Source: a virus. From it: a stretch of 25,455 nucleotides of DNA. How positions within the stretch are numbered: position 1 is the first letter of the stretch; every line of letters starts with the position of its first letter. The notes under the pieces are model-generated. The model did no database searches and had not been told where the DNA came from. It saw nothing but the letters and a program-made list of their open reading frames with translations. The stretch lies in IMG/VR virus record IMGVR_UViG_3300043331_000745, positions 1 to 25,455 of that record; one strand, 5' to 3'. Positions 4,289 to 21,762 of this stretch are shown piece after piece. Both the position numbers and the translations under genes were made by a program.

Positions 4289-4590
4289 GCGCACCCAAAG
4301 ATGTCGCCGTGCGGGCGACTCACGTGATCTCGATGGACGACGCCAGGGTGTGGCTCAAGGAACACGGCCTGGACATATCCGAGGTCGTGGAGGCGACCAT
4401 CCACCTCGACAACCGAGGCAGTGTCGCCAACGACATCTGCGCCTGGGTCGACGTCGTCTTCTACAAGACCAACGAGCGCGGCGACCGCTACCTCGTGACC
4501 AACTACGAGTCCGGGAAGGACCCGGCTACCGGCCGGGCGTCGATTCCGTTGCACCGGTTCCCGGACCTGCGGGAGGCCGAACGGGCATGA
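4285..4590 (+). CDS. Hypothetical protein (101 residues)
   Basis: No family is recognised. The ATG at 4285 is chosen because it forms an ATGA overlap with the previous stop; an in-frame ATG at 4267 would overlap that gene further and lacks support. The protein has an amphipathic N-terminal half (S-M-D-D-A-R-V-W-L-K-E-H-G-L-D) and a beta-rich middle (C-A-W-V-D-V-V-F-Y-K-T-N-E-R-G-D-R-Y-L-V), with no signal peptide or membrane segment. It overlaps the glycosyltransferase start by four bases (ATGA) and so is very likely co-translated with it. An accessory role to that enzyme or a small head-associated protein are both possible. Confidence 0.75.
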   Translation: MSAPKDVAVRATHVISMDDARVWLKEHGLDISEVVEATIHLDNRGSVANDICAWVDVVFYKTNERGDRYLVTNYESGKDPATGRASIPLHRFPDLREAERA

Positions 4591-6038
4591 GCGTGGATCC
4601 TGGGAGCGTTCTGCTGGCCTACCTGCACCCCAACACGGTCAGCCACAGCTTTTCGCAGTCAATCTCGATGGTGTTTTCGTTCGACCTTGCCCATGAGGCC
4701 CGTTTGGCGCGTGGCGGCGGCCCAGCGATGTTCCGCTGCGGTGTCGGCTCTCTGGTTGAGGCCCGTAACGACTGCATCCGCCACTTCCTCGACGACACCC
4801 AGGCGGAGTGGCTGTGGGTGGTGGACACCGATATGGGTTTCCCCGCTGACACGTTGGAGCGGCTTGTCGCGGCGGCTGACCCGGTGGAGCGGCCGGTTGT
4901 CGGCGCGTTGTGTTTTTCGATGCGGGAGAACAAGTCCGACGGTTCGTGTGGTTGGGACACCAGCCCGGCGCCGACGTTGTTTGGGTGGGCGAAGCGCGCG
5001 GACGACGACGAGTTCGGGTTTGTGGTCCGTTGGGACTACTCGGTGGGTGCCCTGACGAAGGTTGCCGGCACCGGTTCGGCGTGCATTCTGATTCACCGGT
5101 CTGCGGTGGAGAAGGTGCGCCTGGCGCATGGTGACACCTGGTATGACCGGGTGGTGTATGCGCAGGGTAAGAAGAAGGTGTCCGAGGACCTGTCGTTCTG
5201 CTACCGGTTGGGGACGGTGGGTGTGCCGGTGTATGTGGACTGTTCGGTCCGCGCCACGCACCACAAGGAAGTGTGGCTGGGTGAGTGGGATTACTGGTCG
5301 GGCCGGACGATTCCGTATGCGGTTGACGAGGTTGCTGTCATCGTCCCGGTGATGCGGCGGCCGCAGAACGCGGAGCCGTTCATGCGCAGCCTCCGCGCGA
5401 GCACGGGGCTGGCGCAGGTGTACGCCGTCGCCGACGAGGACGACAAGGAAACCATCGACGCGTGGCGCGCGGCCGGCGCCGACGACGTCATCGTCGTGGA
5501 GAACGACCCGCCGCGGCCGGGGACGTTCGCCGAGAAACTGAACCGGGCGTACAGCCTGCTATATCCCGGCGGCACCGACCCTGACGCCGAGGACGAAAAC
5601 CTTGACCACTCGGTGTGGGTGTTCATCGTCGGTGACGACGTCCGGTTCCACCCCGGCTGGTTGGACCACGCCCAATACGTCGCTAGGACGATGGGCGCCA
5701 GCGTGGTCGGCACCAACGATTTAGGCACCCAGCAGGTGCAGGCCGGGGAACACGCCACCCACCTTCTCATCTCGAGGGACTACATCGAGCAGCACGGCGC
5801 CAGCTGGGACGGCCCCGGCGTGATCGCCCACGAGGGCTACCACCACTGGTTCGTCGACAACGAGATCGTCACCGCCGCGAAGGCCCGCCAAACGTGGGCG
5901 ATGGCGCTCGGTTCGGTGGTTGAGCACATGCACCCACTGTTTGGGCGCGGCGAGGACGACGAGGTGTACGCCCTCGGCGTGGAGAACGCCGAGAAGGACC
6001 GGGAGAGGTTCGTGCGGCGATGCCAAGAACACCTGTGA
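4587..6038 (+). CDS. Tandem-domain glycosyltransferase (two GT-A-like domains)
   Basis: This 483-residue cytoplasmic protein appears to join two GT-A-type nucleotide-sugar transferase domains. The first (about residues 5-240) has an S-L-V-E-A-R-N-D-C helix and W-L-W-V-V-D-T-D-M-G-F with a DxD metal site at Asp80 and Asp82, then G-A-L-C-F and G-T-G-S-A-C-I-L-I-H. The second (about 247-470) opens with V-A-V-I-V-P-V-M-R-R-P-Q-N-A-E, the classical family-2-like entry strand, and has F-I-V-G-D-D-V (Asp350, Asp351) in place of DxD, then H-P-G-W-L. Sugar, acceptor and linkage cannot be read from sequence. The ATG overlaps the previous stop (ATGA); a methyltransferase follows 18 bases after the stop. 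Location inside the head operon suggests glycosylation of capsid or tail proteins in the infected cell. DNA or host-envelope modification is the main alternative. Confidence 0.85.
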   Translation: MSVDPGSVLLAYLHPNTVSHSFSQSISMVFSFDLAHEARLARGGGPAMFRCGVGSLVEARNDCIRHFLDDTQAEWLWVVDTDMGFPADTLERLVAAADPVERPVVGALCFSMRENKSDGSCGWDTSPAPTLFGWAKRADDDEFGFVVRWDYSVGALTKVAGTGSACILIHRSAVEKVRLAHGDTWYDRVVYAQGKKKVSEDLSFCYRLGTVGVPVYVDCSVRATHHKEVWLGEWDYWSGRTIPYAVDEVAVIVPVMRRPQNAEPFMRSLRASTGLAQVYAVADEDDKETIDAWRAAGADDVIVVENDPPRPGTFAEKLNRAYSLLYPGGTDPDAEDENLDHSVWVFIVGDDVRFHPGWLDHAQYVARTMGASVVGTNDLGTQQVQAGEHATHLLISRDYIEQHGASWDGPGVIAHEGYHHWFVDNEIVTAAKARQTWAMALGSVVEHMHPLFGRGEDDEVYALGVENAEKDRERFVRRCQEHL

Positions 6039-6056: not shown

Positions 6057-6563
6057 GTGCATCCTGAGGTGTTGGACTGGGTGAAGACGTGCTGCGCCAC
6101 GGTCGATGACGGGGTGCGGATCCTGGACATCGGTGGCCGGGACTTGAACGGCACCCCCAAGCATCTGTTCCCCAACGCGGCCGTGTACCACGTGCTGGAC
6201 GTGCACGAGGGCCCGAACGTGGACATCGTCGCCGACGCCGCGTCGTGGCTGCCGTTCGGTAAGTGGACGGACTACGACATGGTGTTGGCGACCGAGGTGT
6301 TTGAGCACACCCCGCATTGGCGGGAGATCATCAGCACCGCGTACCGGGCGTTGCGTGATGGTGGCCGGTTTGTGGCGACGATGGCCGGGCCGGGCCGAGG
6401 CCCGCACTCGGGTATCGCTGCGGAGCCTCGGCTCCGGCCGGGGGAGTGGTACGCCAACATCGACCCGTTGGACTTGTCCGACGCCCTGTCGGCGGCGGGG
6501 TTTGAGCCGGTGTTGGTGGATCAGCACAAGTTGGATGTGCGGTGTTGGGCGGTTAAGCGCTAG
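6057..6563 (+). CDS. Class I SAM-dependent methyltransferase
   Basis: This 168-residue single-domain enzyme starts at GTG 6057 with GGAGGG six bases upstream. Motif I is I-L-D-I-G-G-R-D-L-N-G (Asp24), the SAM-ribose acidic residue is probably Asp48 (V-L-D-V-H-E-G), D-A-A-S-W-L-P-F follows, and the post-motif V-L-A-T-E-V-F-E-H-T-P is typical of methyltransferase families 11/FkbM-like. No DNA-methylase catalytic motif such as DPPY or a PC loop is seen, so a small molecule, sugar or protein substrate is more likely than DNA. Adjacent placement after the tandem glycosyltransferase makes O-methylation of a transferred sugar an attractive but unproven hypothesis. Its stop codon overlaps the stop of the convergent lsr2 gene. 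Confidence 0.85.
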   Translation: MHPEVLDWVKTCCATVDDGVRILDIGGRDLNGTPKHLFPNAAVYHVLDVHEGPNVDIVADAASWLPFGKWTDYDMVLATEVFEHTPHWREIISTAYRALRDGGRFVATMAGPGRGPHSGIAAEPRLRPGEWYANIDPLDLSDALSAAGFEPVLVDQHKLDVRCWAVKR

Positions 6564-6570
6564 TGCGCTT
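6555..6570. terminator. Short hairpin at convergent stop codons
   Basis: AAGCGC (6555-6560), loop TAGT, GCGCTT (6565-6570) forms a perfect 6-bp stem exactly over the stop codons of the methyltransferase and lsr2. By symmetry it exists in both transcripts. T runs are very short, so bidirectional termination is only a possibility. Confidence 0.4.
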
Positions 6571-6898
6571 CTAGGTAGGCGTCGAGTGCCTTGGCTGGGA
6601 TGCGGCCGCGGTCCTTCACGTCGAAGCCGTTGGCGCGTGCCCAGGTGCGGACTTCGTCCTGGTCGTAGCCCTTGTCCGCGCGGTTGGCTGTGGCGGCGGG
6701 TTTCCGCCCGCGGCGCCGCCCGCCGGTCTTCCGGGCCGTGTCGATGAACGGTGCCAGCGCGTCGTGCAGCTTTTCCCAGTTCTTCGACGACAGGTCGATT
6801 TCGTAGTGGCGGCCGTTGAACGCGAACTCGGTGGTGCGGACGTCGAGCTCGGTGCCGTCAAGGTCGTCGATGAGTCGGGTAGTGACTTGCTGAGCCAT
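6560..6898 (-). CDS. lsr2: Lsr2-like nucleoid-associated protein
   Basis: This 112-residue protein is a full-length Lsr2, the actinobacterial functional analogue of H-NS that bridges and silences AT-rich DNA. Residues 1-55 match the N-terminal dimerisation domain (T-R-L-I-D-D-L-D-G-T, then F-A-F-N-G-R-H-Y-E-I-D-L-S). A basic Arg/Gly linker lies at 58-66. The C-terminal DNA-binding domain holds V-R-T-W-A-R-A-N-G and D-R-G-R-I-P, with the minor-groove RGR hook at residues 97-99. All key elements are intact. AAAGGGG precedes the start. It is the only - strand gene in the window and lies within the late operon, converging on the methyltransferase with overlapping stops (shared CTAG). Phage-borne Lsr2 could silence phage genes during lysogeny, antagonise or supplement host Lsr2, or affect superinfecting phages; the sequence does not distinguish these. 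Confidence 0.93.
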   Translation of the reverse strand: MAQQVTTRLIDDLDGTELDVRTTEFAFNGRHYEIDLSSKNWEKLHDALAPFIDTARKTGGRRRGRKPAATANRADKGYDQDEVRTWARANGFDVKDRGRIPAKALDAYLEAH

Positions 6899-8652: not shown

Positions 8653-8843
8653 TGGCCGAGATGGTTCGCGTGTTCATCGTCCTCGACGGGAACCGCGTCG
8701 AAAAGGACATCGCCGAGGTGAGTAAAAAGCTTTACATCCCTCGGGGGTGGCGGGTTGTCGGCTCGGAGGACGACCCGCAGGCAAGTAAGCCCAGCCCTAC
8801 CCCGACGCCGCGGAACAGCGGCAAGAATGCGAGTGATGACTGA
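8652..8843 (+). CDS. Small hypothetical protein (63 residues)
   Basis: The reading frame is tiled exactly between TGATG overlaps on both sides. The first 40 residues look structured (M-V-R-V-F-I-V-L-D-G-N-R-V-E-K-D and R-G-W-R-V-V-G), while the last 23 are a Ser/Pro/Thr/Lys-rich tail likely to be disordered. No domain is recognised. The start at 8652 is chosen for the overlap rather than a further upstream in-frame ATG at 8595, which would lie deep inside the previous gene. It may be a short neck or tail accessory. Confidence 0.7.
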   Translation: MAEMVRVFIVLDGNRVEKDIAEVSKKLYIPRGWRVVGSEDDPQASKPSPTPTPRNSGKNASDD

Positions 8844-9334
8844 TGGCGACTTCCGCTATCCAGGCGTCGACCAGGTATTTCGACGTCGGAACCACCAAGA
8901 TTTACTTCCTTCCGGCTGTGGCGTCGGGGTCGCTGATCCCGACCCGCGCGGAAATGAACGCCGGAACCGACCTTTCCCCCGAGGTTGCCGAGGTCGACGG
9001 CTGGTCCGTTGCTTCGGAGCAGATTGAGACCCCGGACTTCGGTACCCGGTTCGTGTCGCAGATCCCGGGTCGTATTTCTGCGGAGGACTCGTCGCTGACG
9101 ATGTACTCCGACCAGGAAGGCGACGACGTGCGTGAGCTGCTGCCTCGTGACACCACCGGCTACATCATGTGGCTGGACGGTGGCGACACTGCAGGTAACC
9201 GCGCCGACGTGTACCCGGTGAAGGTGACTTCGCTGTCGAAGATGCGGTCCGCGGAGAAGAACGCCGCCATGATTAAGGTGTCGTTCGCTATCACCGCCGA
9301 CCCAGGTGAAGACGTCACCGTCCCGGCGCCGTGA
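8843..9334 (+). CDS. Major tail (tube) protein
   Basis: This 163-residue protein would polymerise into the tail tube. It begins with S-A-I-Q-A-S-T-R-Y-F and continues T-K-I-Y-F-L-P, T-R-A-E-M-N-A-G-T-D-L, D-G-W-S-V-A-S-E and a G-Y-I-M-W-L-D-G-G-D motif, a set I recognise from actinophage major tail proteins. It precedes the frameshifted chaperone and the tape measure, the standard order. Its stop overlaps the chaperone GTG (GTGA). A diverged paralogue lies at 19631-20113 with matching motif order, sharing R-Y-F, T-R-A-E, G-W and W-L-D-G-G-D, by eye about two-fifths identical. The earlier gene is the likely main tube subunit because of its context. Confidence 0.88.
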   Translation: MATSAIQASTRYFDVGTTKIYFLPAVASGSLIPTRAEMNAGTDLSPEVAEVDGWSVASEQIETPDFGTRFVSQIPGRISAEDSSLTMYSDQEGDDVRELLPRDTTGYIMWLDGGDTAGNRADVYPVKVTSLSKMRSAEKNAAMIKVSFAITADPGEDVTVPAP

Positions 9335-9825
9335 GTTTGCGGGAGCAGCTGCTGGGACGGCAGCTCCCGTACGCAACCGTCCCTCTCCGGGTGGATTTCA
9401 GCCCGGAGGCTGATCAGGTGGAAGTCGAGTTGGGGCGGGCCCGCCGCGCACTGCAAGATGCAGGTGGGCCCGACCCCGACCTCGAGCAGCGTGTCGCCGA
9501 ACTGGTTGAGCGGTCGGCGGCTGCGTATGCGCAAATCAAGATTCGGCAGATACCGCCGGATGACATGCAAGCCATCGTGGATGCGCACCAACCCACCGAT
9601 GAGCAGGCCAAGCAGGGGGCCCGGTGGGCGCCCACGTTCGGGCCTGCGGTGTTGGCCGCCACGGTTGTTGATTCGGACATGTCCGAGTCCGACTGGGCGA
9701 TGCTGTTCAAGGGTGACCAGTTGGCGTTGGGTGAGCTGATGGTGTTGGTGAACACCGCCGTCGCTGTGAATGACCGCTCCCCGGATGTGATGTGGGGAAA
9801 AGGTTCACCACCGACGATCAGCTAG
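9331..9825 (+). CDS. Tail assembly chaperone, short form (gpG-like)
   Basis: This 164-residue chaperone helps the tape measure and tail tube assemble and is not expected in the virion. It is mainly helical (V-E-L-G-R-A-R-R-A-L-Q-D and L-E-Q-R-V-A-E-L-V-E-R-S), with W-A-P-T-F-G-P-A-V-L-A-A and the conserved ending V-N-D-R-S-P-D-V-M-W-G-K at the slippery site, a pattern I know from actinophage chaperones. The GTG start overlaps the major tail protein stop (GTGA). The zero-frame product ends eight residues past the slip. A -1 shift at 9795-9801 makes a 269-residue fusion with the following frame. Confidence 0.88.
   Translation: MSLREQLLGRQLPYATVPLRVDFSPEADQVEVELGRARRALQDAGGPDPDLEQRVAELVERSAAAYAQIKIRQIPPDDMQAIVDAHQPTDEQAKQGARWAPTFGPAVLAATVVDSDMSESDWAMLFKGDQLALGELMVLVNTAVAVNDRSPDVMWGKGSPPTIS
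9795..9801 (+). promoter_or_regulatory. Programmed -1 ribosomal frameshift slippery site
   Basis: The heptamer GGGAAAA is in the correct phase, G GGA AAA relative to the upstream frame, fitting X XXY YYZ. It lies in the overlap between the short chaperone frame (stop at 9823-9825) and the next frame, which has no stop from before 9792 to 10139. The -1 product reads on as K-R-F-T-T-D-D-Q. No clear stimulatory pseudoknot was found by eye. Confidence 0.9.
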
Positions 9826-10139
9826 CGGCGGAGATGATGGTGTGCGCCGAATACCGGCTGCCCCACTCTCAGTTCCTGACTTGGGCTCGGGACGACCGCG
9901 ACAAGGCGATCTGGTGGGAAATCCGTAAACGTCAAACCTGCCAGGGGTGCGGCACCCGCGACGAGGAGTGGGACCCCGACCTGGGTGGTCGCCGCGACGC
10001 GTACAAGGCGGAGTGGGTGCGGTGCGCGGGGTGCGCGATGACGCAGGCCCGCGAGGAGGCGGGGAACCCGATTGATTTGGGTTCGGAGCAGAAGGCCCGC
10101 GGGTTCACCGTGAAGCTACGCCCAAACAACCGGGGGTGA
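9801..10139 (+). CDS. Tail assembly chaperone frameshift extension (gpT-like)
   Basis: This frame is expected to be made only as the C-terminal part of a -1 frameshift fusion starting at 9331 and rereading base 9801. It contributes 112 residues. It includes C-A-E-Y-R-L-P-H-S-Q-F-L-T-W and two Cys pairs, C-Q-G-C-G and C-A-G-C, 40 residues apart, likely a zinc ribbon. In lambda the T part of gpGT binds the tail tube protein; the same role is inferred. An in-frame GTG at 9792 could in principle start it independently, but no good ribosome site precedes it. The stop TGA is followed immediately by the next GTG. Confidence 0.85.
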   Translation, partial: RFTTDDQLAAEMMVCAEYRLPHSQFLTWARDDRDKAIWWEIRKRQTCQGCGTRDEEWDPDLGGRRDAYKAEWVRCAGCAMTQAREEAGNPIDLGSEQKARGFTVKLRPNNRG

Positions 10140-11066: not shown

Positions 11067-11101
11067 TCACCCCTTTTTTCAACCGTCGACTGGAGGGGTG
11101 A
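11067..11101 (+). promoter_or_regulatory. Inverted repeat covering the tape measure ribosome site
   Basis: TCACCCC (11067-11073) can pair with GGGGTGA (11095-11101), over a 21-base gap. The right arm includes part of the GGAGGGG ribosome site and the first base of the ATG at 11101. It could lower tape measure translation until unfolded. Chance occurrence is possible for a 7-bp GC-rich repeat. Confidence 0.35.
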
Positions 11102-14100
11102 TGTCGGGCAACGAACTCCGCTACAAGGTCATCTTTGATGCGATGACCGCCGCGCTTGAGAAGGCTGTGCAGCAGTTGCAGCGGCTCGGGCGTGAAGCCG
11201 ACCAGTTGGACCGCAAGGACGTCAACATCGATGTGGATGTTGACACGGCGAAAGCCGAAGCGAAGATCGGTTACCTTGCGAAAACCATCCAGGCTCGGTT
11301 GCAGTCGGCGTTGCGGGCTATCCCCGACATCGACGTCGACGCGGACGTCACCGACGCGCAGCGGAAGCTGGCGGGGCTCGCCGCCCGGATGAAGGCCCTG
11401 TCCGACGCCAAAATCGGTGTCGACATGGACGAGGCGGAAGCCCTCCGCGACATCGAAATCATCCGCACCGAGCTGCGCCGGTTGTCGACGGAGTCCGCTG
11501 AGATTGATGTGCGGGTCGACTCCGGTAAGGCGCTGGCCGAGCTCGAGGCGATCGCCGCCGCGGTCAACAAGAACGACCAGAGGTTCGTCGAGTTTCAGAA
11601 GACTGTTGCGAACACCCAACGGGAGTTCGACGCGGCTGCCCGGGCGGCGGAGAAGACCGCCGCGGCGACGGAGAAGATCCGGCTTAAGCGGGTCGCGGAC
11701 GAGGCACGCGAGGCGTCCCGCGAAATCGTCAACATCGACCGCAACGTTCAAGCTATGCGCGGCCGCCTCACCGAGGTCCAAAAGGTGATGTTGGCGGTGG
11801 TGGGGTTGTTCCCCATCATCGCCGCCGCCATCGTCGGGCTGCCTGCGGCGTTCATGGCGTTGGCAACCCCCATCGCCGCTGTCGCGTTGGGTGTTGAGGG
11901 AATCAAGGCTGCGGTGGCGCCGCTGGCCGACGAGTTCGCCCGGATGCAGGAGTTTGTGTCGGCGGCGTTTGAGCAGGGTTTGGCGCCGGCCGTCGCGAAC
12001 ATCGCCGGGATGATGTCCGGGCTCACCGAAATCTTGGGTGAGACAGCGGAGCGGATGTCGCTGGTGGCGTTCGCCATCTCCGAGGTTGTTTCTGAGGGCT
12101 CGCAGGGTCTGGACGACCTGTTCCAGTCGATGAACAACATCAACGACGTCATCGGGATCATGGCGCCGGGGATGGCCGACCTGGTCGCGAACTTCCTGTC
12201 CCTCGCCCGCGCGGGCACCGAGGCGATGATCCCGTTCGCGGCCATGTTCAACCAGGTCGGCGAAACTTGGACTCGGGTCATCGACCAGATGAACTCCACC
12301 GGGTCGGTGGAAGCCGCGGTCCTGGGGTTGTTGCAGTTGTTCGCGGCACTGCTGGACGTCCTCGCGCCGCTGACAGCGCTGGGCGCCCAGTTCATGGCTG
12401 TGCTAGGTCCGCCGCTCGCTGCTGCGCTGTTGGCTGTTTCAGCCGTCCTGCAGCCCCTTGTGGCGGCGTTCGCGCAGCTGCCGACGGTGCTGCAAACCGC
12501 GATAGCGGCTGCGCTCATGTTCCGCGCTGTGATGGCCATCCTCGGGCGCTCCTTGGACGGCACGAAGAAGTCCGCCGCGGAGGCCGGGCAGGCGATGGCC
12601 AAGTCGGCGCAGGCAACCCAGCAGGCCGCGCAGGCAACCCAAACCGCCGCAACCCGCATGGACGGGATCCGGGCATCCCTCACCGGCGTTGCTACCGCCT
12701 ACCGGACAGGTGCGCAGGCGGGGCAGACGTTCGGTGCGCAGGTCGCCGCGTCTGCGTCACAGGCTGCGGCCGCGTTGTCGAACACCCTGGTCGGCGGGGC
12801 GGAACGCGCCGGCCGGGCCGTCATCCGCCTCGGTGAATCCTTCGTTGCCCTGGGGCAGACGTTCTCCCGTGTCGGGTCGGGGTCGCTGTTCGCCGGGTTC
12901 GAGAAGTCCCTGATCGCAGGGGAGCAGGCCGTTGCCCGTCTCGGGTCGGCCATCGCATCTGGTGTGCGCGCTGTCGACACCGGCATGGCCGCGATGGGGC
13001 GGGCGGTCGCCACCGGGGTGAACGCAGCCGGGGACGCCCTGATGCGGCTCCCCGAGCTCGGGGGCCGGGCGATGGACGCCCTGGTGAACACCACCGTCCG
13101 CGGCGCGGCCGCATTGAACTCGGGGCTGAACCGGGCGTTCGACGGGGTGGTCAACGGGGCCCGCGCAATCCACACCGGCCTGGATAGCGCGGTCGGCGCG
13201 GTGGGCCGGTTCGTCACCTCCGGTAACCAGTTGTCGACGGTGATGAACGCTGCGGGGAACGTGGCCCGCTCGTTCGGCACCACCATGAGCAACCTCGGTG
13301 TCAGCCTCGGCACCGGACTGGCCGGGGCGGTGCAGCGGATTCCGGTTGTGGTGGACGCTGCGACCGGCGCGTTCACCCGTTTCTCCGGGGTTGTCGGTGG
13401 GGTCGCCCGCGGCGCGGTGGCGGGGATGTCCTCGGCTGTGTCGGGGTTGATGGGTGCACTCGGCGGGCCCTGGGGCGCGGCGATCACCGGCGCCACCGTG
13501 CTACTGGGTATTTGGGGGCAGCAGCAGCAGGAAGCCGCGCAGAAGGCCGCGCAGCACAAGGCCGCGGTGGATGCGTTGGCGTCGGCGCTGCAGCAGTCCA
13601 ACGGGGCGATCACCGCCAACGTGGAGGCGTTGGCAGCGAAGCAGGCCGAGGAAGCCGGGCTAATCAAGTCGTCGCAGGCGCTGGGCATCTCCGCCCGCGA
13701 CCTCACCCTCGCCATCACCGGGCAGGGCAACGCCTACCAAGACGTCATGGCGCATGTGAAGGCAGCGGTCACCGCGCAGGACGGGTTCGCTGTTGGGATC
13801 AACGCCTCGACTGTGGCGCTGAACGCCGCCAACCCGGGTCTTGTGCAGTTGGCGAAGTCGCTGGGGTTGGTGACGACCGAAACCCTGCAAACCGGCGCGG
13901 GGATCAAGACCGCCGCTGACCGGTTCAAGGAAGCCCAAGAGTCCGCGAAGCGGATGGACGAGGCGATGCGCGGCGCGGCTGCGTCGTTCGGGCCGGTGGC
14001 GGCGGCGGCGGACGCCTCGCAGCGGTCCACTATGGCGTGGGCGACCGCGATGAAAACCCTCGGTGAGAGCACGTCGACGACGAAGGAAAAAATCGACGGG

Positions 14101-15534
14101 TTCGCGGCGACGTTCCAGACGGCCAGCGAGGGGGCCCGCTCGAGTCTTGAGGCGTTGAAGGAGGCCAACGAAGCTCTCGGCAAGTTCGGGGAGTCGATCG
14201 GCCGCATCACCCCCGGGCTAATCAACATGAACGGGACGATCAACACCTCATCGGTGGCTGGTCGGCAGTTGGCGACGGCGGTATTGGACACCGCGAAGTC
14301 GTTTGACCAACTGTTCGGTGCAACCGTGACCACCCTGCAGCAGCAGGGTGTGCAGATGCCGCAGGCGTTCGGTCAGGCTGCGGCGGCGACGTTGCAGTAC
14401 CGCGAGAATCTGATTCAGACGGCGGTGGCGCACGGCGCGACCCGCTCCGAAGCCGAAGCGTTGGTCAACACGTATTTCAAGTTCCCGCCGGAGATCGCAA
14501 CCACGTTCTCCCAGCCGGGGATGTTGGAGGCGATGGCCAACGCCCTCGGGTTGAAGGTCAGTGTCAACGACATCCCGGGCGACAAGGAAGTTCGGGTGTC
14601 GTCGCCGATGACCCCGGCGTTGATCGCGCAGCTCGACGCTTTGGGGTTGAAGGTCACCCAAATCCCGGGGACCAAGGACGTCGTTATCACAGCGAAGGAC
14701 GAAGTCACCCCGGCTATCGGCGCGATTGTGGGGAAGACCTACACCGCGTCGATCAACGTTGCCACCCCGAACGCGGCGGCGCAGGACGCCAACCTGACCA
14801 ATGTGGCCCGGCCGCGGGACCAGGTCGACACCGTCCAAACCCCGAACGCGGGGGCGGTCGACTCGCAACTCACGAACGTCGCCCGCCCCCGCGACCAGGT
14901 CGACAACGTGCAAGCCCCGAACGCCGGGGCGGTCGACTCGCAGTTGAACAACGTCGCCCGCGACCGCACCGTCACCATCACCGTCGGTGTCCGCATGGGC
15001 ACCGTCGCCACCGGGTCGGTCACCCTGTCCGCCGGCGGTATCGCGTTCCCCTTCACCATCCCCTACATCGGGCTCGCCAAGGGCGGCGTAATCAACCGCT
15101 ACGACCGCGGCGGCGTCGAACCCGTCAGTTCCCGCCGGAATCTGCGGCCGCTGCCAGGCGGCACACCCAGGGTGGTGCCCCCGGGTGCGTGGCGGATCAT
15201 CGGGGACAACCCTCGGGTGCCGGAGTCCTACATCCCCTGGGAACGCAACAAGCGCACCGCGAAGCTGCTCGAGACCACCGCTAACGCTCTCGGGTTCGGT
15301 GTGGTGCCCATGGCCAACGGCGGAGTGCATTCCGCTGTCCGCACTCCTCAAGGTGGCAGCCCGGCAGCCTCGACGCAGGTGGTGTCGAACGCTGAGGTGG
15401 TCGCCGAGCTCCGCGCCACCCGCGACCTGATTGAGCGCCGCGGGGTGGGCACGTCGCAGATTGTGGTGGAGGACCGCTCCGGCGACCCGATTGAGACCGC
15501 CAGGCAAACCCGCCTCGCGATGCGCCTCGCCTAA
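11101..15534 (+). CDS. Tape measure protein
   Basis: This 1477-residue protein is by far the longest here and is the tail length ruler. Using the usual relation of about 0.15 nm per residue, it predicts a tail near 220 nm. Residues 1-220 are charged helical coiled coil (A-L-E-K-A-V-Q-Q-L-Q-R-L-G-R-E-A). A hydrophobic stretch near 228-275 (V-G-L-F-P-I-I-A-A-A-I-V-G) may aid membrane passage. A long Ala/Gly-rich helical middle follows, with three 25-residue repeats at about 1222-1296 and a C-terminal K-G-G-V-I-N-R-Y-D-R-G-G-V and G-A-W-R-I-I-G-D-N-P, as is common in tape measures. No lysozyme or peptidase motif was seen. The ATG at 11101 is preferred over GTG 11098 because of spacing from GGAGG. 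It lies between the chaperones and the tail tip genes. Confidence 0.95.
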   Translation: MSGNELRYKVIFDAMTAALEKAVQQLQRLGREADQLDRKDVNIDVDVDTAKAEAKIGYLAKTIQARLQSALRAIPDIDVDADVTDAQRKLAGLAARMKALSDAKIGVDMDEAEALRDIEIIRTELRRLSTESAEIDVRVDSGKALAELEAIAAAVNKNDQRFVEFQKTVANTQREFDAAARAAEKTAAATEKIRLKRVADEAREASREIVNIDRNVQAMRGRLTEVQKVMLAVVGLFPIIAAAIVGLPAAFMALATPIAAVALGVEGIKAAVAPLADEFARMQEFVSAAFEQGLAPAVANIAGMMSGLTEILGETAERMSLVAFAISEVVSEGSQGLDDLFQSMNNINDVIGIMAPGMADLVANFLSLARAGTEAMIPFAAMFNQVGETWTRVIDQMNSTGSVEAAVLGLLQLFAALLDVLAPLTALGAQFMAVLGPPLAAALLAVSAVLQPLVAAFAQLPTVLQTAIAAALMFRAVMAILGRSLDGTKKSAAEAGQAMAKSAQATQQAAQATQTAATRMDGIRASLTGVATAYRTGAQAGQTFGAQVAASASQAAAALSNTLVGGAERAGRAVIRLGESFVALGQTFSRVGSGSLFAGFEKSLIAGEQAVARLGSAIASGVRAVDTGMAAMGRAVATGVNAAGDALMRLPELGGRAMDALVNTTVRGAAALNSGLNRAFDGVVNGARAIHTGLDSAVGAVGRFVTSGNQLSTVMNAAGNVARSFGTTMSNLGVSLGTGLAGAVQRIPVVVDAATGAFTRFSGVVGGVARGAVAGMSSAVSGLMGALGGPWGAAITGATVLLGIWGQQQQEAAQKAAQHKAAVDALASALQQSNGAITANVEALAAKQAEEAGLIKSSQALGISARDLTLAITGQGNAYQDVMAHVKAAVTAQDGFAVGINASTVALNAANPGLVQLAKSLGLVTTETLQTGAGIKTAADRFKEAQESAKRMDEAMRGAAASFGPVAAAADASQRSTMAWATAMKTLGESTSTTKEKIDGFAATFQTASEGARSSLEALKEANEALGKFGESIGRITPGLINMNGTINTSSVAGRQLATAVLDTAKSFDQLFGATVTTLQQQGVQMPQAFGQAAAATLQYRENLIQTAVAHGATRSEAEALVNTYFKFPPEIATTFSQPGMLEAMANALGLKVSVNDIPGDKEVRVSSPMTPALIAQLDALGLKVTQIPGTKDVVITAKDEVTPAIGAIVGKTYTASINVATPNAAAQDANLTNVARPRDQVDTVQTPNAGAVDSQLTNVARPRDQVDNVQAPNAGAVDSQLNNVARDRTVTITVGVRMGTVATGSVTLSAGGIAFPFTIPYIGLAKGGVINRYDRGGVEPVSSRRNLRPLPGGTPRVVPPGAWRIIGDNPRVPESYIPWERNKRTAKLLETTANALGFGVVPMANGGVHSAVRTPQGGSPAASTQVVSNAEVVAELRATRDLIERRGVGTSQIVVEDRSGDPIETARQTRLAMRLA
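14764..14988 (+). repeat. Three tandem 75-bp repeats in the tape measure gene
   Basis: Three consecutive 25-residue units share P-N-A-x-A-x-D-x-x-L-x-N-V-A-R. The first two continue P-R-D-Q-V-D-x-V-Q; the third diverges after V-A-R-D-R. The DNA is similarly repeated. Such units could change tape length by slippage. Confidence 0.85.
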
Positions 15535-15570: not shown

Positions 15571-15996
15571 ATGTCGGCGACGGACGCCCGCGAAGTGCTC
15601 ATCCTCAACAGCCAATTCGGGGGCGGCGCGACAACGTGGGCGCCCGCAACCTGGTTCGTCGCGCTGTCCACCACAACCCCAAACGACGACGGATCCAACT
15701 TCACCCCACCATCCGGCGGGTCCTACGCCCGGGTATCGAAAACAAACAACACCACTAACTGGGGCGCCACCGCCACCACCGACGGCTCCGGCGTCACCTC
15801 CTGCAAGAACGCCACCGCCATCACCTTCCCCACCCCAACAGCAGACTGGGGAGTCATCACCCACGCCGGGCTATACACCGCATCCTCCGGCGGCACCCCC
15901 GAGTACGTGATCGAACTGGACACCCCAATCACGGTGCGGAACGGGAACACCCCCGTCGAGTTCGCCATCAACCAGCTGGTCATCACCTGCTCCTGA
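15571..15996 (+). CDS. Minor structural protein, phage tail beta-sandwich family
   Basis: This 141-residue protein has T-W-F-V-A-L-S-T-T-T-P, then P-S-G-G-S-Y-A-R-V-S-K-T-N-N-T-T-N-W, A-I-T-F-P-T-P-T-A-D-W-G-V-I-T-H-A-G-L-Y and a C-terminal V-E-F-A-I-N-Q-L. This order (V-A-L-S-T, Y-A-R-V, N-W, F-P, W-G) is a recurrent virion protein domain of actinophages and other siphoviruses, likely a tail-tip or fibre component. ATG 15571 follows CGGAGG. A distant relative by pattern is at 23101-23574. Coming immediately after the tape measure it may associate with the distal tail. Its exact place in the virion is unknown. Confidence 0.72.
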   Translation: MSATDAREVLILNSQFGGGATTWAPATWFVALSTTTPNDDGSNFTPPSGGSYARVSKTNNTTNWGATATTDGSGVTSCKNATAITFPTPTADWGVITHAGLYTASSGGTPEYVIELDTPITVRNGNTPVEFAINQLVITCS

Positions 15997-16038: not shown

Positions 16039-17673
16039 GTGGCGATTGAGCTCCGTCAAGCCGCGCAGAACGCGAAGCACTCCGGGCAGGGCCGGACGTG
16101 CACAGTCACCTTCGATGAGCGCACCAAACAGTCCTCAACGATCATGCTGTTCATCGCGGTGTCGTCGGGGAACGTGAACATCGCCATCGACGACGTCAAC
16201 TTTGAACACACCCGCACCCGCTCCCAGGGTGATTTGACGTTGGCGCACTACCGGCGGGGCAACGCAACCCCGATGGACTCCGTCACCGTCCGGATCAACA
16301 AGTCCCGGTCGTTTGAAGTCATCGCGATGGAGTACACCGGGATCCGGCTGGACGCCGCCCTCGACAAATCCGTCTCCACGTCTCGGCGGGACAACCGGTG
16401 CGACTCCGGCACCTCCGCCACCTCCACCCAAGCCGAAAGCTTGGTCATCGCGGGGATCGCCAACTTGCGCAACTCGTGTCGCCAGTCCGGGTTCACCGGC
16501 GGACTGACCCGCCTGTTCGACCAGGTCACCCCCGACGTGGACGGCGACGTCGACCGGATCCGCATGACGGTCCACCAGTACATCGCCTCGAGCACAGGCC
16601 AGTTCCGGCTGCGGGGGAACCTGTCCTCCCACCGCGACTGGGCTGGGATTTTAGCGGTCTACAAGGGCGCCAGTACGGGCCCGGCCCGGTTCAGCGCGGT
16701 CAACACCGACGACGACCACCACACGATCCGCATGGGTGGTGTGGGGGTGTTGACGGCGTTTGGGCCGCTCCAAGCCACCGCCACCACCCCGGCCAGCATC
16801 GTCACCGGCGGCAGCGCCGACATGTGGCCGTTCGACTACCAGTACGCCCTGAACAACCGCCGCATGTTGATCGGTGTCGGCACCGACTACCGGGTGTTGG
16901 ACGCCGAAGGGTTGAACGGGTGGCAGATGCGCACCTCGGACTCCGACCAGCCGCTGGCGGACGGCGCGGTCCGCGGCGTCGACCTCATGTCGGCCCGGCA
17001 AATCCTGTTCAACATCGCCACCCTGCCCCACGGCGGCACCACCGAGGCAATCGAGGCGTCGCTTCGGACGCTGTACGACACGCTGATCCCGTCCCGCAAC
17101 CAAGACTGGGAACTGGTGTGGCGTCACCCCGGGCAGGGTGTGCGGATGCTGCGGTGCCGCCCCATCGACCTGATTAGGGGCATGGACGCCAAACGGGTGC
17201 TGCTGCAGGACCAAAAGTTCGCGCTCAGGGCGGTTGACCCGCGCCATTACAGCCCCCTCGCCTATGCGGTCCAACTGACGGTGTCCGACGAAACAGCCAC
17301 CGTCGTCAACGAGGTCACCACCGAAGGCACCGCACCCGCCTACCCCGTCATCCGTGCGGTCGCGAACGAAACCATCACCCGCCTCGAGCTCATCAACGAC
17401 TCCGCCGATGTGGCGTTCGACTTGAAAACCACCGTCGGCTCCGGGTCGGTGGTGGTCGCCGACATGGACTCGAGGGTGCGTTCCACCGGGACGTCACCGG
17501 TCACCGTCGACGGCGTCTCCAAGTACGGGGCGTGGCAGTTCCCCCGCGCCAGTTTCTACCTCGCCCCGAACCCCGAGGCGGAGGACGGCATCAACCAGCT
17601 GCGGGTGCACACCGAACCGGTAGGAGCGGACGTGGACGTCACCCTCGAGTTCCGGCACACCTACTATGGCTGA
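16039..17673 (+). CDS. Distal tail protein (Dit-like) with extra N-terminal domain
   Basis: This 544-residue protein likely forms the ring between tail tube and baseplate. The C-terminal part (about 210-544) has the Dit layout: an early tail-tube-like domain (Y-R-V-L-D-A-E-G-L-N-G-W-Q-M-R, then L-M-S-A-R-Q-I-L-F-N), W-E-L-V-W-R-H-P-G, R-P-I-D-L, and a galectin-like C-domain ending V-D-V-T-L-E-F-R-H-T-Y-Y-G. The first 208 residues are a separate beta-sandwich (C-T-V-T-F-D-E-R and V-I-A-M-E-Y-T-G-I, with A-E-S-L-V-I-A-G-I), similar in pattern to carbohydrate-binding or adhesion domains and absent from minimal Dits. GTG 16039 follows GGACGGGG. The stop lies eight bases inside the next gene. Receptor recognition by the N-domain is inference. 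Confidence 0.75.
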   Translation: MAIELRQAAQNAKHSGQGRTCTVTFDERTKQSSTIMLFIAVSSGNVNIAIDDVNFEHTRTRSQGDLTLAHYRRGNATPMDSVTVRINKSRSFEVIAMEYTGIRLDAALDKSVSTSRRDNRCDSGTSATSTQAESLVIAGIANLRNSCRQSGFTGGLTRLFDQVTPDVDGDVDRIRMTVHQYIASSTGQFRLRGNLSSHRDWAGILAVYKGASTGPARFSAVNTDDDHHTIRMGGVGVLTAFGPLQATATTPASIVTGGSADMWPFDYQYALNNRRMLIGVGTDYRVLDAEGLNGWQMRTSDSDQPLADGAVRGVDLMSARQILFNIATLPHGGTTEAIEASLRTLYDTLIPSRNQDWELVWRHPGQGVRMLRCRPIDLIRGMDAKRVLLQDQKFALRAVDPRHYSPLAYAVQLTVSDETATVVNEVTTEGTAPAYPVIRAVANETITRLELINDSADVAFDLKTTVGSGSVVVADMDSRVRSTGTSPVTVDGVSKYGAWQFPRASFYLAPNPEAEDGINQLRVHTEPVGADVDVTLEFRHTYYG

Positions 17674-18733
17674 GTACGAGCTGGTGTGCGTGGCGCGTAT
17701 CCCGCAAGCCAACACCGCGCCGTTCCTGTTCGAAATCGACCCCATCGACTTCGACTCCCTGCAATGGGTGGATGAACTCAACCAACCCCAGCAGCTCGAC
17801 GTGCAGTGCCTCGTGTCGAAAATGACGTTGCCGGTGCGGCAACGCCTACAGAACCTCGCCGAGTTGGCCACCGAACTGTGGCTGTACCGCGACGGCATCC
17901 ACGTTTTCGCTGGCCCACTGGTCGGGTGGGAAGCACAAGACAGCGACCGGCTCACCCTCCACGCCCGCGGGCTGCTGTTCTACCTGCGGTGGATGGTCGT
18001 CGACGAAGACCTCACCTTCACCGGCGACGACATGTTCACCATCGCGGCCAGCCTGATCGACCAGTGGCAGGACTTGGAGTTTGGGAACTTCGGCATCGAA
18101 ACCGGCAACGTCGGCCTGTCCGGGGCCACCGCCGACTCGGCGTATGTGAAAACCGAGTTTCCGTTTGTGTTGCCGGCTCTGGAGGAGCTGTCAAAGTCGG
18201 GTGACGGGTTCGACTTTGAGGTTGACCCGGCGTCGCGGAACCTGCGGCTGTGGTACCCAAAAGCCGGGGTTGACCGGTCCGTCGGTGACGACGCCATTGT
18301 GTTCGACGCGTCGAACATCGAATCCCGCACCGTGAAGTGCTCCGCCGGGCCCGACGACTTGGCTTCGGCCGCGCTGGTGACATCCACTGACACCGAGCAG
18401 GGAACCCTGTTCAGCGCGTACATCAGCGAGGACCTTCTGGTCACCTTCGGCCGGTCCGCGATCGCGCAGAACCTCGACAAGGTCACCGACATCACCCTGC
18501 TGGATCAGGCCGCCGAACAACTCAGCAACAGCCGCCGCGTGGCGCTGCTGGTGCCCGGCCCCACCACCCGGGTCACCGCCGACACCGACCTGTCCCGCTA
18601 CCAGGTGGGTGACACCGTGTTCTACGACCTGCACGACACCCTCGAAATCTCGGGGCCGTTCCGAGTCCGGAAACGCACCGTTGACGTCGCTGACCAAGGC
18701 GGCCGGGAACGCGCCGGCCACGAGTTCGTCTAG
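17666..18733 (+). CDS. Baseplate hub / minor tail protein, ReqiPepy6 Gp37-like
   Basis: This 355-residue protein shows the siphovirus Gp37-like layout: beta-rich N-domain (L-W-L-Y-R-D-G-I-H-V-F-A-G-P-L-V-G-W), L-T-L-H-A-R-G-L-L-F-Y-L, an aromatic and acidic middle, G-D-G-F-D-F-E-V-D-P, and a C-terminal domain with L-S-R-Y-Q-V-G-D-T-V and I-S-G-P-F-R-V-R-K-R. Such proteins form the tail hub after Dit, equivalent to the N-terminal part of Tal or gp27-type hubs. It overlaps the Dit gene by eight bases (ATGGCTGA), indicating coupled translation. No peptidase or lysozyme domain is attached. The family call is from recalled pattern and order. Confidence 0.78.
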   Translation: MAEYELVCVARIPQANTAPFLFEIDPIDFDSLQWVDELNQPQQLDVQCLVSKMTLPVRQRLQNLAELATELWLYRDGIHVFAGPLVGWEAQDSDRLTLHARGLLFYLRWMVVDEDLTFTGDDMFTIAASLIDQWQDLEFGNFGIETGNVGLSGATADSAYVKTEFPFVLPALEELSKSGDGFDFEVDPASRNLRLWYPKAGVDRSVGDDAIVFDASNIESRTVKCSAGPDDLASAALVTSTDTEQGTLFSAYISEDLLVTFGRSAIAQNLDKVTDITLLDQAAEQLSNSRRVALLVPGPTTRVTADTDLSRYQVGDTVFYDLHDTLEISGPFRVRKRTVDVADQGGRERAGHEFV

Positions 18734-18745: not shown

Positions 18746-19303
18746 GTGGGCACTGAACGTCGCGACCCGCCGCTCGAGCAGATGGTCGCCGAAACCGCCC
18801 GCCGCACGGCCGACCTCCGCAACACCGCGCTGCAACGCATCGCGCAAAAAGGCGGGCAAATCATCGACCGGCAGCACGGGGTGACTTCCTCCAACGTCAC
18901 CGGCACCGGCACATCGTTCTCAACAGCCGTGGTGGTGCTCAACTCGTCGACGATGACGTTCTACGCGGGCCGCGCCTACTACGTGTACTGCCCCAACATC
19001 GGGCTGTTCCAAGACGCCCCCACGATTGGGGCGATGGCCGCGCAAATCACCTACACCGACGACGGTTCTGCCCCCACACCGGGCGACTTCCTGGCGTGCC
19101 AGTCACAATGCGTCACACCATCCTCCGACTTCGTCGCATCGGTCAGTTTGGGTAAAACGTTCTTCCCCGGCTCCACCGTCACGATGCGAACCCAACTGTC
19201 GTTTTGGCGAGTCATCACCGCAGGCTCATCCCGCGGTGGGGCCTGGCAGGCAGACGGCGCCGGCATCGAGTTGATGTGCTTCGACATGGGGACCGAGGTA
19301 TGA
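18746..19303 (+). CDS. Minor tail protein
   Basis: This 185-residue protein begins with an amphipathic helix (L-E-Q-M-V-A-E-T-A-R-R-T-A-D-L-R) likely to anchor it to the hub. A beta-sandwich follows with T-M-T-F-Y-A-G-R-A-Y-Y-V-Y and F-W-R-V-I-T-A-G-S-S-R-G-G. An N-terminal helix plus beta domain is typical of small side proteins at siphovirus tail tips. The GTG at 18746 has AGGAGG at 18732-18737. The stop overlaps the next ATG (ATGA). No enzymatic motif is seen. Confidence 0.72.
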   Translation: MGTERRDPPLEQMVAETARRTADLRNTALQRIAQKGGQIIDRQHGVTSSNVTGTGTSFSTAVVVLNSSTMTFYAGRAYYVYCPNIGLFQDAPTIGAMAAQITYTDDGSAPTPGDFLACQSQCVTPSSDFVASVSLGKTFFPGSTVTMRTQLSFWRVITAGSSRGGAWQADGAGIELMCFDMGTEV

Positions 19304-19752
19304 GCCGCATCGGCCGCGACGACATCCACTTGGACCGGCTAGCCGAGGAGATCGGCGACGCCGCTGGCGAGCCGGTCGCTTTGACCGTTGTGGACGGCGA
19401 ACTCACCGTCACTGACATCACCGGGCGGCCCGTCGACATCGACGAAGGTGTGGTCGCCGACATCGTCGCGAAGCACGACCCAACCCCGGCGCCGACCCCC
19501 ATCGAAACCCTGGCCGCCGCCCTCGAGTCCGACGCGGCGGTGGAGGACAAGCTGGCCGCGGTCGCCGTGTGGGCCCGCGCCGAAGCCGACCAGGCCGCCC
19601 GCCCCACACCGACCATTGGGAGGCGCCCCGATGCCAGTGACATCCGTCCAGGCAGTCAGCAGATACTTCGCCCCGGGCCTGTCGAAGGTGTACTGGGTGC
19701 CAACCCTGTCGACACCCCACCTACCAACCCGCGCCGAACTGGCCGCCGGTAA
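19300..19752 (+). CDS. Hypothetical tail-associated protein, 3' end overlapping the second major tail protein gene
   Basis: The 150-residue frame starts in an ATGA overlap. Residues 1-110 look like a genuine acidic helical protein (L-D-R-L-A-E-E-I-G-D-A-A, V-D-I-D-E-G-V-V-A-D-I-V, A-A-V-A-V-W-A-R-A-E). The last 40 residues are read out of frame through the start of the paralogous major tail protein gene and are Pro/Gly/Arg rich without clear structure. This suggests the original stop was lost when the paralogue was inserted or that the overlap evolved later. It may be a hub-bound accessory; no function is recognised. Confidence 0.6.
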   Translation: MSRIGRDDIHLDRLAEEIGDAAGEPVALTVVDGELTVTDITGRPVDIDEGVVADIVAKHDPTPAPTPIETLAAALESDAAVEDKLAAVAVWARAEADQAARPTPTIGRRPDASDIRPGSQQILRPGPVEGVLGANPVDTPPTNPRRTGRR

Positions 19753-20113
19753 AGACCTCACCGCCGAGCTCGCCGAAACATCCGGGTGGCAGATGACGTC
19801 AGAGGAAATCGACGTCCCACCCGACATGGGCACGTACTTCGCGCACAAAATCCCCGGGTGGCGCATGGTCGACGAATCGACGTTGACGTTCTACGCCGGC
19901 GACGACGGCTCCGACATCCGCACCCTCATCAACACCCTCGACGAGGGCTACATCTGTTGGCTCGACGGCGGCGACGTCGAGGGCTACCCGCTGCACGTGT
20001 TCCCGGTGACGGTCCGGTCGAGGGGAGTGACCCGGGGCGAGGCGGCGGGGTTGATTGTCGTGTCGTTCTCTGTGACGTCGGAGCCAATCGAAACTACAGC
20101 GCCAGCGCTCTGA
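19631..20113 (+). CDS. Second major tail protein paralogue
   Basis: This 160-residue protein is a clear diverged copy of the major tail protein at 8843-9334. Shared landmarks in the same order are Q-A-x-S/T-R-Y-F, K-x-Y-x-x-P, P-T-R-A-E, A-G-x-D-L, G-W, M/F-G-T-x-F, I-P-G, L-T-x-Y, G-Y-I-x-W-L-D-G-G-D, and a C-terminal F-x-V-T/I-T strand. The ATG has GGGAGG about eight bases upstream (19617-19622). It begins inside the preceding frame and sits beyond Dit and hub genes, away from the chaperone and tape measure. It could be an alternative tube subunit, a terminal ring or a displaced duplicate under drift; an uninterrupted frame and good ribosome site favour expression. Confidence 0.85.
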   Translation: MPVTSVQAVSRYFAPGLSKVYWVPTLSTPHLPTRAELAAGKDLTAELAETSGWQMTSEEIDVPPDMGTYFAHKIPGWRMVDESTLTFYAGDDGSDIRTLINTLDEGYICWLDGGDVEGYPLHVFPVTVRSRGVTRGEAAGLIVVSFSVTSEPIETTAPAL

Positions 20114-20401: not shown

Positions 20402-20586
20402 GATGGTTCTGGCACTGGTGGCTGCGGCGACCCGACACGACCGCCGAAGAACTCCTCAAGGAACTCGAGGACCGCGACGAGCACATGCAGGAGCTCGGGG
20501 CGGAACTGCGCCGCGTGCGGGCCCGGAACCACTTCTCTGACCTTGTGAACGAAGCCATCCACCACGCCGCGAGGGGGGCGCAGTGA
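20398..20586 (+). CDS. Small charged protein with aromatic N-terminus
   Basis: This 62-residue protein starts M-R-W-F-W-H-W-W-L-R-R, an aromatic-basic cap suited to the membrane interface. A long acidic and basic helix follows (A-E-E-L-L-K-E-L-E-D-R-D-E-H-M-Q-E-L) and the ending N-H-F-S-D-L-V-N-E-A. Such proteins occur beside endolysin and holin genes of actinophages with no known function. The gene is tiled by ATGA at its start and GTGA at its end. A lysis-regulation role is inference. Confidence 0.75.
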   Translation: MRWFWHWWLRRPDTTAEELLKELEDRDEHMQELGAELRRVRARNHFSDLVNEAIHHAARGAQ

Positions 20587-20978
20587 GTGTCGTTTTCTAC
20601 CTCGCTGGGTCGTTGCTGATCCTGCTGTCCGCGGCGATCGGTGTGGCGTCGGTGGTGGTGCACGCGCGGGTGCCGTGGCGCACCTCCGAGATGGGCCGCC
20701 ACCTCATGTACTACATGACCGTGGTGGCCGCCATCCTGTCGCTGTCCGCGATTTCCGTTGTCCAGAAAATCGCGGAGGCTGTCGCCGCGGGTGACCTCCT
20801 GGACGTCGCTGAAAAGGCCGCCGCCGGGCTGCCTCTGTGGTTCCTGATGTTGCGGCTCGGTCTATACCTGGCGCTGCCGCTGGTGATGGGGCAGCGGCTG
20901 AAGCTGCAGCTGCAGGCGCAACGGGAGGAACGGGTCCGTCTCGCGCAGATTCGGCGGGAACTCGAGCAGCAGCAGTGA
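20583..20978 (+). CDS. Multi-pass membrane protein, holin or lysis-accessory candidate
   Basis: This 131-residue product has three or so hydrophobic helices (about residues 5-26, 41-62 and 84-103), a conserved-looking loop V-P-W-R-T-S-E-M-G-R-H-L-M-Y-Y-M, and a charged C-terminal helix (Q-R-E-E-R-V-R-L-A-Q-I-R-R-E-L-E). Similar proteins in actinophage lysis regions are called holins or membrane proteins. The GTG start overlaps the previous stop (GTGA), and the stop overlaps the next GTG. The smaller two-helix protein at 21836 is an equally good or better holin candidate, so function stays open. Confidence 0.72.
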   Translation: MSVVFYLAGSLLILLSAAIGVASVVVHARVPWRTSEMGRHLMYYMTVVAAILSLSAISVVQKIAEAVAAGDLLDVAEKAAAGLPLWFLMLRLGLYLALPLVMGQRLKLQLQAQREERVRLAQIRRELEQQQ

Positions 20979-21124
20979 CCGTTCTGGCGGTCCTCCTTGC
21001 TCGTGGCTACCCGGAACACGTCGCGCGTCGCCACCTCCGTTACGGCCGTGTCCGCGTCAACGGGCTAACCGTGTACGCCCCGAACACCCCGGCAAGTGAC
21101 CACACAGTGGAGGTCCGCAAGTGA
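20975..21124 (+). CDS. 49-residue S4-like protein
   Basis: This very short gene starts with GTG in a GTGA overlap and ends in a GTGA overlap with the endolysin. The product has the pattern of the S4 RNA-binding motif: L-L-A-R-G-Y, A-R-R-H-L-R-Y-G-R-V-R-V-N-G, V-Y-A-P and a final V-E-V-R-K. In S4 domains the R-R...G-x-V-x-V-N-G...V-E-V order forms the helix-turn-beta RNA-binding fold. Here it stands alone with nothing attached. It might bind RNA, or simply reuse the fold for a structural or lysis role. Coding is supported by exact tiling and by the motif agreement; a longer frame upstream (from 20837) is a shadow of the preceding gene. Confidence 0.68.
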   Translation: MTVLAVLLARGYPEHVARRHLRYGRVRVNGLTVYAPNTPASDHTVEVRK

Positions 21125-21762
21125 GCTGGCGCGTAGCTAAATCCCTCGACGTCCTCCTGGGCCAACTGAACAGCACCTACCCGCAGCGGTCCAAAGCGTC
21201 AGACGGATCCATCGGCGACGCCGCCCACGCCACCCGCGACTCCGACCACAACCCGTGGTACGGGCCCGGGATTGTCACCGCCCGCGACTTCACCCACGAC
21301 CCCGCCAATGGTGTCGACATCAACCGGTTGACTGACGAGCTCGTCGCCACCCGCGACCGGCGCATCAAATACGTCATCGCGAACAAACTGATCCTCGACT
21401 CCCGCCCGGGAAACAACCCGTGGCGGTGGATGCCCTACAGCGGATCCAACCCGCACACCAAGCACTTCCACCTGTCGGTGGTCGCTAGCCCGTTGTGTGA
21501 CGACACCGCGCTTTGGCAGCTCCCCAGCCTGTTGCCGCCGCCGCCGGCGGCGACCCGGTCTGTGTTGAGTGTGGGGGACTCCGGCCCGCAAGTCGCCGAA
21601 CTGCAACGGGTGTTGGCTGCCTGGTACCCCAACCTGGGGCTGGTGGTCGATGGCCGTTACGGGCCCGCCACCGAAGCGGCAGTGAAGTATTTCCAGGCCC
21701 GCGCCGGGCTGGGTATCGACGGCATCGCTGGCCCGAAAACCCTCGCCAAGCTAGGCATGTAA
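21121..21762 (+). CDS. Endolysin: M15-like peptidase with peptidoglycan-binding domain
   Basis: This 213-residue lysin likely cleaves peptide links in host peptidoglycan. The N-terminal domain (about 1-125) has A-A-H-A-T-R-D-S-D-H-N-P (His43), T-A-R-D-F-T-H-D (Asp56, His59) and H-T-K-H-F-H-L-S (His112, His115, His117), matching a zinc D,D- or L,D-peptidase layout related to M15; His43, Asp56 and His117 are the best zinc-ligand candidates. A Pro-rich linker (P-P-P-P) follows, then a C-terminal peptidoglycan-binding type 1 domain at about 149-213 (V-G-D-S-G-P-Q-V-A-E-L-Q, D-G-R-Y-G-P-A-T-E-A-A-V, D-G-I-A-G-P-K-T-L). No signal peptide, so a holin is needed. GTG 21121 follows GGAGG at 21109-21113. 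No LysB-type esterase is visible. Confidence 0.9.
   Translation: MSWRVAKSLDVLLGQLNSTYPQRSKASDGSIGDAAHATRDSDHNPWYGPGIVTARDFTHDPANGVDINRLTDELVATRDRRIKYVIANKLILDSRPGNNPWRWMPYSGSNPHTKHFHLSVVASPLCDDTALWQLPSLLPPPPAATRSVLSVGDSGPQVAELQRVLAAWYPNLGLVVDGRYGPATEAAVKYFQARAGLGIDGIAGPKTLAKLGM

Follow-up and report, generated by a model that had tools for sequence, protein, structure and literature searches.

A second, diverged tail-tube protein gene between the tail tip and lysis genes of a siphophage-like virus

The usual assumption is that a single gene supplies the subunits of a phage tail tube. Extra tail-tube genes are nevertheless already known in some phages. All 56 members of the cluster DJ Gordonia phages carry two related major tail genes sharing 43% identity, an arrangement interpreted as horizontal acquisition (PMC12859696). 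Furthermore, in cluster EL Microbacterium phages the annotation as major tail protein is given to more than one gene (Damascus gp17/gp19, PMC11080557; DizzyRudy genes 17, 19 and 20). In SPP1, two forms of the tube subunit, gp17.1 and gp17.1*, are present in one tail (PMC8718954). Moreover, the distal tail ring protein gpM of lambda has a tube-like fold and is encoded after the tape measure gene; both the O-loop and the extended termini found in the tube subunit gpV are missing from it (PMC10721106).

The DNA stretch analyzed here (the window) is a whole virus record of 25,455 bases, which shows a head-tail-lysis run of genes and represents a siphophage-like genome. It encodes two tail-tube (major tail) proteins, termed TTP1 and TTP2. 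Features referred to below are the following, with supporting evidence in brackets; L012 and L025 (IMG/VR 3300018422_000004) denote related viral records.

8843-9334, plus strand: TTP1, canonical major tail protein gene, 163 aa, ahead of the chaperone-like genes and the tape measure gene (PF25595, 124 bits; phrog_2491; model pLDDT 82.5)
9331-10139 (9331-9825 and 9792-10139), plus strand: two overlapping ORFs in the tail-assembly-chaperone position (position and overlap; phrog_19248, annotated as unknown function)
11098-15534, plus strand: tape measure protein, 1478 aa (size and position; short C-terminal tblastn match to the L025 tape measure)
15571-15996, plus strand: Gp80-like small fibre protein (PF23140, 97 bits)
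16039-17673, plus strand: Dit-like/minor tail protein (phrog_5577, phrog_202, weak PF22768 match; 36% to L012)
17666-18733, plus strand: hub-like minor tail protein (phrog_1885; 43-44% to L012)
18746-19303, plus strand: 185-aa protein in tail-tip position (its place corresponds to that of a 156-aa protein in L025)
19300-19752, plus strand: 150-aa ORF, last 122 nt inside TTP2 (ORF list, GC3)
19618-19623, plus strand: GGGAGG, Shine-Dalgarno-like site 7 nt upstream of the TTP2 ATG (sequence and motif scan)
19631-20113, plus strand: TTP2, second tail-tube protein gene, 160 aa (BLASTP to TTP1, PF25595, phrog_2491, AlphaFold2, Foldseek)
20583-20978, plus strand: holin (PF23778)
21121-21762, plus strand: endolysin (PF01471, endolysin PHROGs; 64% to the L025 endolysin)

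TTP1 occupies the usual place ahead of the tape measure gene and the two overlapping ORFs, which are regarded as chaperone-like from their position. TTP2 lies outside the place before chaperone and tape measure genes that is habitual, not defining, for the family. As an earlier note on this DNA had stated, the gene order places it past the Dit-like and hub-like genes and adjoining the lysis region: it is located downstream of the tape measure, Gp80-like, Dit-like and hub-like genes and upstream of holin and endolysin, with small membrane genes between TTP2 and the holin gene, where the lysis module starts (20583). Family searches returned no match for the 185-aa protein, which also shows no sequence similarity to the co-positioned 156-aa protein of L025, nor for the 150-aa ORF.

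As in the cluster DJ phages, both major tail genes of the window are intact, and they are paralogues. However, the DJ copies lie in one region with a single gene between them and are constant in all 56 members, whereas those of the window are 10.3 kb apart, with the second past the tail tip and of sporadic occurrence. In DizzyRudy, which is likened to the window by its annotation, all major tail genes precede the tape measure gene and differ in length. The two SPP1 forms arise from one gene by a frameshift adding an FN3 domain, whereas the window possesses two genes, and no additional domain is present in TTP2. A location beyond the tail tip is unusual for such a gene; neither a TTP copy in this place nor its repeated gain there was found described in the open-licence papers searched. 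TTP2 extends the published two-gene cases and does not open a new class.

The TTP2 ORF is intact, comprising 160 codons from ATG to TGA on the plus strand, and the GGGAGG site 7 nt before its ATG is better than the ribosome site of TTP1, whose start overlaps the stop of the upstream neighbour. The intact frame and good ribosome site described in the earlier note are thus confirmed. A scan for the sigma-70 consensus showed no promoter-like site in the TTP2 5' region. The GC3 value of the gene (0.83) is coding-like, and a foreign composition was ruled out, since GC and GC3 are in line with the remaining window. The 5' 122 nt of TTP2 overlap the 3' end of the 150-aa ORF, a feature absent from the earlier note; within this overlap, third-position GC favours the TTP2 frame (0.75 vs. 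0.56 in the other frame), and the corresponding part of the upstream ORF looks non-coding. Upstream of its ATG, the TTP2 frame contains no stop as far back as 19385. A frameshift fusion of the upstream ORF with TTP2 was considered and rejected, since L025 has no such overlap and the conserved protein begins at the ATG, which has a ribosome site of its own.

TTP2 and TTP1 align over their full length (BLASTP 130 bits, E 3e-44, 44% identity, 63% positives), and their alignment score is 331, whereas 500 residue shuffles averaged 31 and reached 64 at most. Aligning both proteins had been proposed as a check on the claim of a second, diverged major tail gene, and the significant result upholds that claim, as do the shared families: both match the PF25595 (Phage_TTP_16) profile above its curated cut-off of 27 (67.3 bits for TTP2, 124.4 bits for TTP1) and the major tail protein family phrog_2491 (TTP2 E 1.1e-19). 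The TTP2 match is near full-length, covering PF25595 model positions 6-162 of 167, and beyond the two genes no further match to this family occurs anywhere in the 25,455-base record. The landmark motifs said to be common to both proteins are present as claimed. Hence, TTP2 is a genuine full-length paralogue of TTP1, belonging to the same family and predicted to have the tube fold.

AlphaFold2 models, built on 55 (TTP2) and 53 (TTP1) family sequences, reached pLDDT values of 86.9 (pTM 0.77) and 82.5, respectively, and exhibit an identical order of strands and helices. Foldseek searches with the TTP2 model returned 9mfe, 7t2e and 8k36 (TM about 0.66); the best solved matches are the tube proteins of lambda (gpV) and YDC107, and TTP1 retrieves the same set. 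The tail-tube fold, whose absence from TTP2 would have spoken against the earlier proposal, is therefore predicted as a tube beta-sandwich. A sequence search of solved structures gave weak non-phage matches only. TTP2 retains the N-loop and the beta1-beta2 segment: in TTP2 as in TTP1, 18 residues precede the first strand, and the segment from beta1 to the helix is 10 residues long. Structurally, TTP2 stands out only by one additional proline, which is located in the beta2-beta3 loop and is unique among the 55 sequences (1/55). This loop forms the ring-to-ring contact in known tubes (PMC8718954), and in the SPR tail tube protein it is the part read by DSR2 (PMC10981675); altered stacking or altered recognition are possible consequences. 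Net charges of co-resident TTP copies are similar within pairs (-11.5/-11.2, -3.5/-0.5, -8.4/-9.3), a weak hint at compatibility. The idea that second copies lost the P-D motif convergently was rejected, since the single-copy TTPs of L033 and L075 also have Q there.

Regarding selection, TTP2 retains 27 of the 33 family columns with a conservation of 80% or more among the other sequences, and outside these columns its identity to TTP1 is about 35% (Fisher p 1e-6). The dN/dS value between TTP1 and TTP2 is 0.49 at a dS of about 1.1; since no close orthologue of TTP2 was found, its own selection is judged only against TTP1. In the tandem lineage described below, the one second-copy lineage in which the proposed dN/dS check was measurable, selection is not visibly relaxed: second copies compared between phages (L087 vs. 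L130) have a dN/dS of 0.27, equal to that of the first copies. TTP2 thus shows purifying selection, and some of the conservation could predate its arrival.

In order to evaluate how common second copies are, the PF25595 profile was searched across whole records. Family members with a named host originate from Streptomyces, and 56 of the 393 Streptomyces genomes contain a match (61 rows). Among these 393 genomes, no two matches lie less than 20 kb apart, except for two pieces of one broken gene. A TTP gene of one Streptomyces genome (G512:C1:4187144-4187613) is split over two frames and resembles that of a decaying prophage. ZL12, the nearest named phage, has one match. Among related viral records, two of 82 (L025 and L087; the false lead L001 is left out of this count) possess two copies. 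In L025, the second copy is located about 9.5 kb past its first, in a slot equivalent to that of the window, while in L087 it stands in tandem with the first; the fetched loci L118 and L130 contain the same tandem pair (L087 8750-9717; L118 3644-4404; L130 158-1122). L025 is the only one of 27 viral records with at least 12 kb past their TTP to have a distal second copy; since many records are fragments, absences in short ones carry little weight. One TTP gene is the rule in the PF25595 family, in agreement with the previous statement that one tail tube subunit is normal.

As to conserved second copies in related phages, which had also been suggested for examination, independent copies exist in L025 and in L087/L118/L130, but no orthologous copy was found. 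A scan of viral contigs for TTP2 orthologues (query P0001) returned L001 only. This candidate was discarded as a chance match inside a 671-aa protein, which is not matched by PF25595 and is read as a baseplate-wedge-like ORF. The same type of scan yielded nothing with the window's Dit and two distant loci only with its hub.

Phylogenetic trees were based on 101 and 40 sequences, L005 and L006 in the first representing TTP1 and TTP2 of the window. The second copy of L025 nests within the clade formed by TTP1 of L025 and of its relatives (100/99), and the tandem second copies form a pair of their own beside their first copies. TTP2 of the window represents a long branch (1.07-1.42) of uncertain placement, indicating faster evolution than in the TTP1s. 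L025 resembles the window in that its second PF25595 gene is located past the tail-tip genes and upstream of lysis genes that include a homologous endolysin; the two second copies nevertheless do not group together, a joint clade being rejected by the AU test (p 0.0018). A clade of the L025 copy with the tandem copies was likewise rejected (p 0.016), whereas neither grouping of the window TTP2 with the tandem copies (p 0.30) nor its placement as sister of its own TTP1, i.e., duplication in situ (p 0.18), was rejected. These p-values are indicative, because groups were named after the first tree had been seen. A common origin is thus rejected for the window and L025 copies and for those of L025 and the tandem group; therefore, second copies were gained at least twice and probably three times (window, L025, tandem group). 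TTP2 shares 48% identity with the L014 TTP vs. 44% with its own TTP1, and this slightly greater closeness to TTPs of other phages leans towards acquisition from another phage of the family or an old duplication. Within L025, the first 18 residues of both TTPs (10001-10054 and 19558-19611) are identical at 16 of 18 positions, and the remainder is far less alike, reflecting either constraint or gene conversion.

The slot between tail tip and lysis genes is variable. L012, whose tail tip is the most closely related to that of the window (Gp80 53-59%, Dit 36%, hub 43-44% identity), has a single TTP and no second copy. Its equivalent slot (L156 8958-12035, minus strand) contains genes for a tail-collar protein, a PIG-L-type deacetylase-like and a GH16-like protein; these slot genes likely act on cell-surface sugars. 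L025 has an insert of about 3 kb between tail-tip and membrane genes, comprising a 120-aa ORF, its second TTP gene and an Excalibur-domain gene, and in its relatives L048 and L075 this insert is absent, the membrane genes following directly after the tail-tip gene. Since L012 lacks a second copy and the L025 relatives lack the insert, TTP2 is classified as accessory. Moreover, as L012 has homologues of the tip proteins, a tail of the window's build probably functions without TTP2.

Based on these results, it is proposed, with somewhat better than even confidence, that selection maintains TTP2 as an accessory second tail-tube gene in a variable slot, its product serving as a minor or alternative tube subunit. 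TTP2 would be translated late, together with the tail genes, and its product would fold as a tail-tube protein and enter the tail tube in mixed rings or in a few whole rings. There, it would change the surface or stability of the tube rather than form an essential tip ring. A tube subunit is preferred over a cap or tip ring because TTP2 keeps segments that are absent from lambda gpM. The long branch of TTP2 and its distance from TTP1 and the chaperone-like genes count against this assignment, and stacking on TTP1 rings might be weakened by the additional beta2-beta3 loop proline; a place for TTP2 as an alternative subunit in the virion is what we infer from the features above. A selected second tube gene away from the first, in a slot where such genes were gained at least twice, offers natural test cases for the questions raised by second tube genes, namely whether heteropolymeric tubes are possible and what advantage they bring to phages.

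Alternatively, TTP2 may not enter the virion and may act in the cell, either by poisoning the tubes of competitor phages or as a decoy for TTP-sensing defence systems such as DSR2. The accessory slot fits such a role, and the unique insertion of TTP2 sits in the beta2-beta3 loop, by which monomeric tail tube protein activates DSR2 (PMC10981675). There is also precedent for a block of tail assembly by a prophage protein, Tab, which targets the tape measure (PMC10884400). However, nothing in the window ties TTP2 to early or lysogenic expression: it has late operon orientation and overlapping neighbours, and the sigma-70 consensus scan showed no promoter-like site upstream. Furthermore, a second TTP could itself trigger a TTP sensor. 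This explanation is considered unlikely.

Formation of a distal ring linking the tube to Dit and hub, or of a cap, in the manner of lambda gpM or T4 gp48/gp54, is rather improbable. The gene does stand after the tip genes, as does the second copy of L025, tip rings of other phages have the tube fold (PMC10721106, PMC8718954), and a changed beta2-beta3 loop could suit an asymmetric neighbour. However, a Dit-like gene is already there, and a gpM-type protein would be expected to be constant with the tip genes, whereas L012, having homologous Dit and hub genes, lacks TTP2. TTP2 also keeps the tube-subunit segments corresponding to the O-loop and extended termini missing in gpM. The earlier note's suggestion of a tail-tip cap or ring is for these reasons disfavoured. 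Known tip-ring genes, moreover, directly follow the tape measure gene and are constant within their group, which counts against a tip-ring function of TTP2.

A comparably low probability is assigned to TTP2 being a recent, non-functional passenger, duplicated or acquired and now being lost. The rarity and patchiness of second copies and the long TTP2 branch would agree with this, but the intact frame, coding-like GC3, conserved positions (p 1e-6) and a dN/dS below 1 at a dS of about 1.1 argue otherwise. The passenger explanation keeps some weight because part of the conservation may predate the arrival of TTP2.

Far more speculative is the idea that the slot between tail tip and lysis genes repeatedly receives extra tube subunits directed against competitors or host sensing, in which a TTP altered in the loop read by DSR2-like sensors would shield or substitute the main tube protein, or poison the tails of co-infecting phages. 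The slot was used in the window and in L025, independently according to the AU test; the altered loop occurs in the window copy only. That, in certain conditions, TTP2 can take over from TTP1 as main tube protein, giving two alternative tails, is most doubtful, since its full set of tube features and own ribosome site are set against a single chaperone-like and tape-measure set and a sigma-70 consensus scan without a promoter-like site near the gene.

Further genes of the window were recorded within the head-tail run. Directly 3' of the capsid gene, an endonuclease VII (HNH-type) gene is located at 3103-3816 on the plus strand (PF02945). Between capsid and connector genes, a glycosyltransferase-2-like gene (4350-6038, plus strand) and a small methyltransferase gene (6057-6563, plus strand) are encoded, whose products possibly modify the virion surface or host sugars. 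Lsr2-like genes are known in actinophages; in the window, an Lsr2 gene encoding both Lsr2 domains occupies an odd place at 6560-6898, on the minus strand and thus opposite to the surrounding head-tail run.
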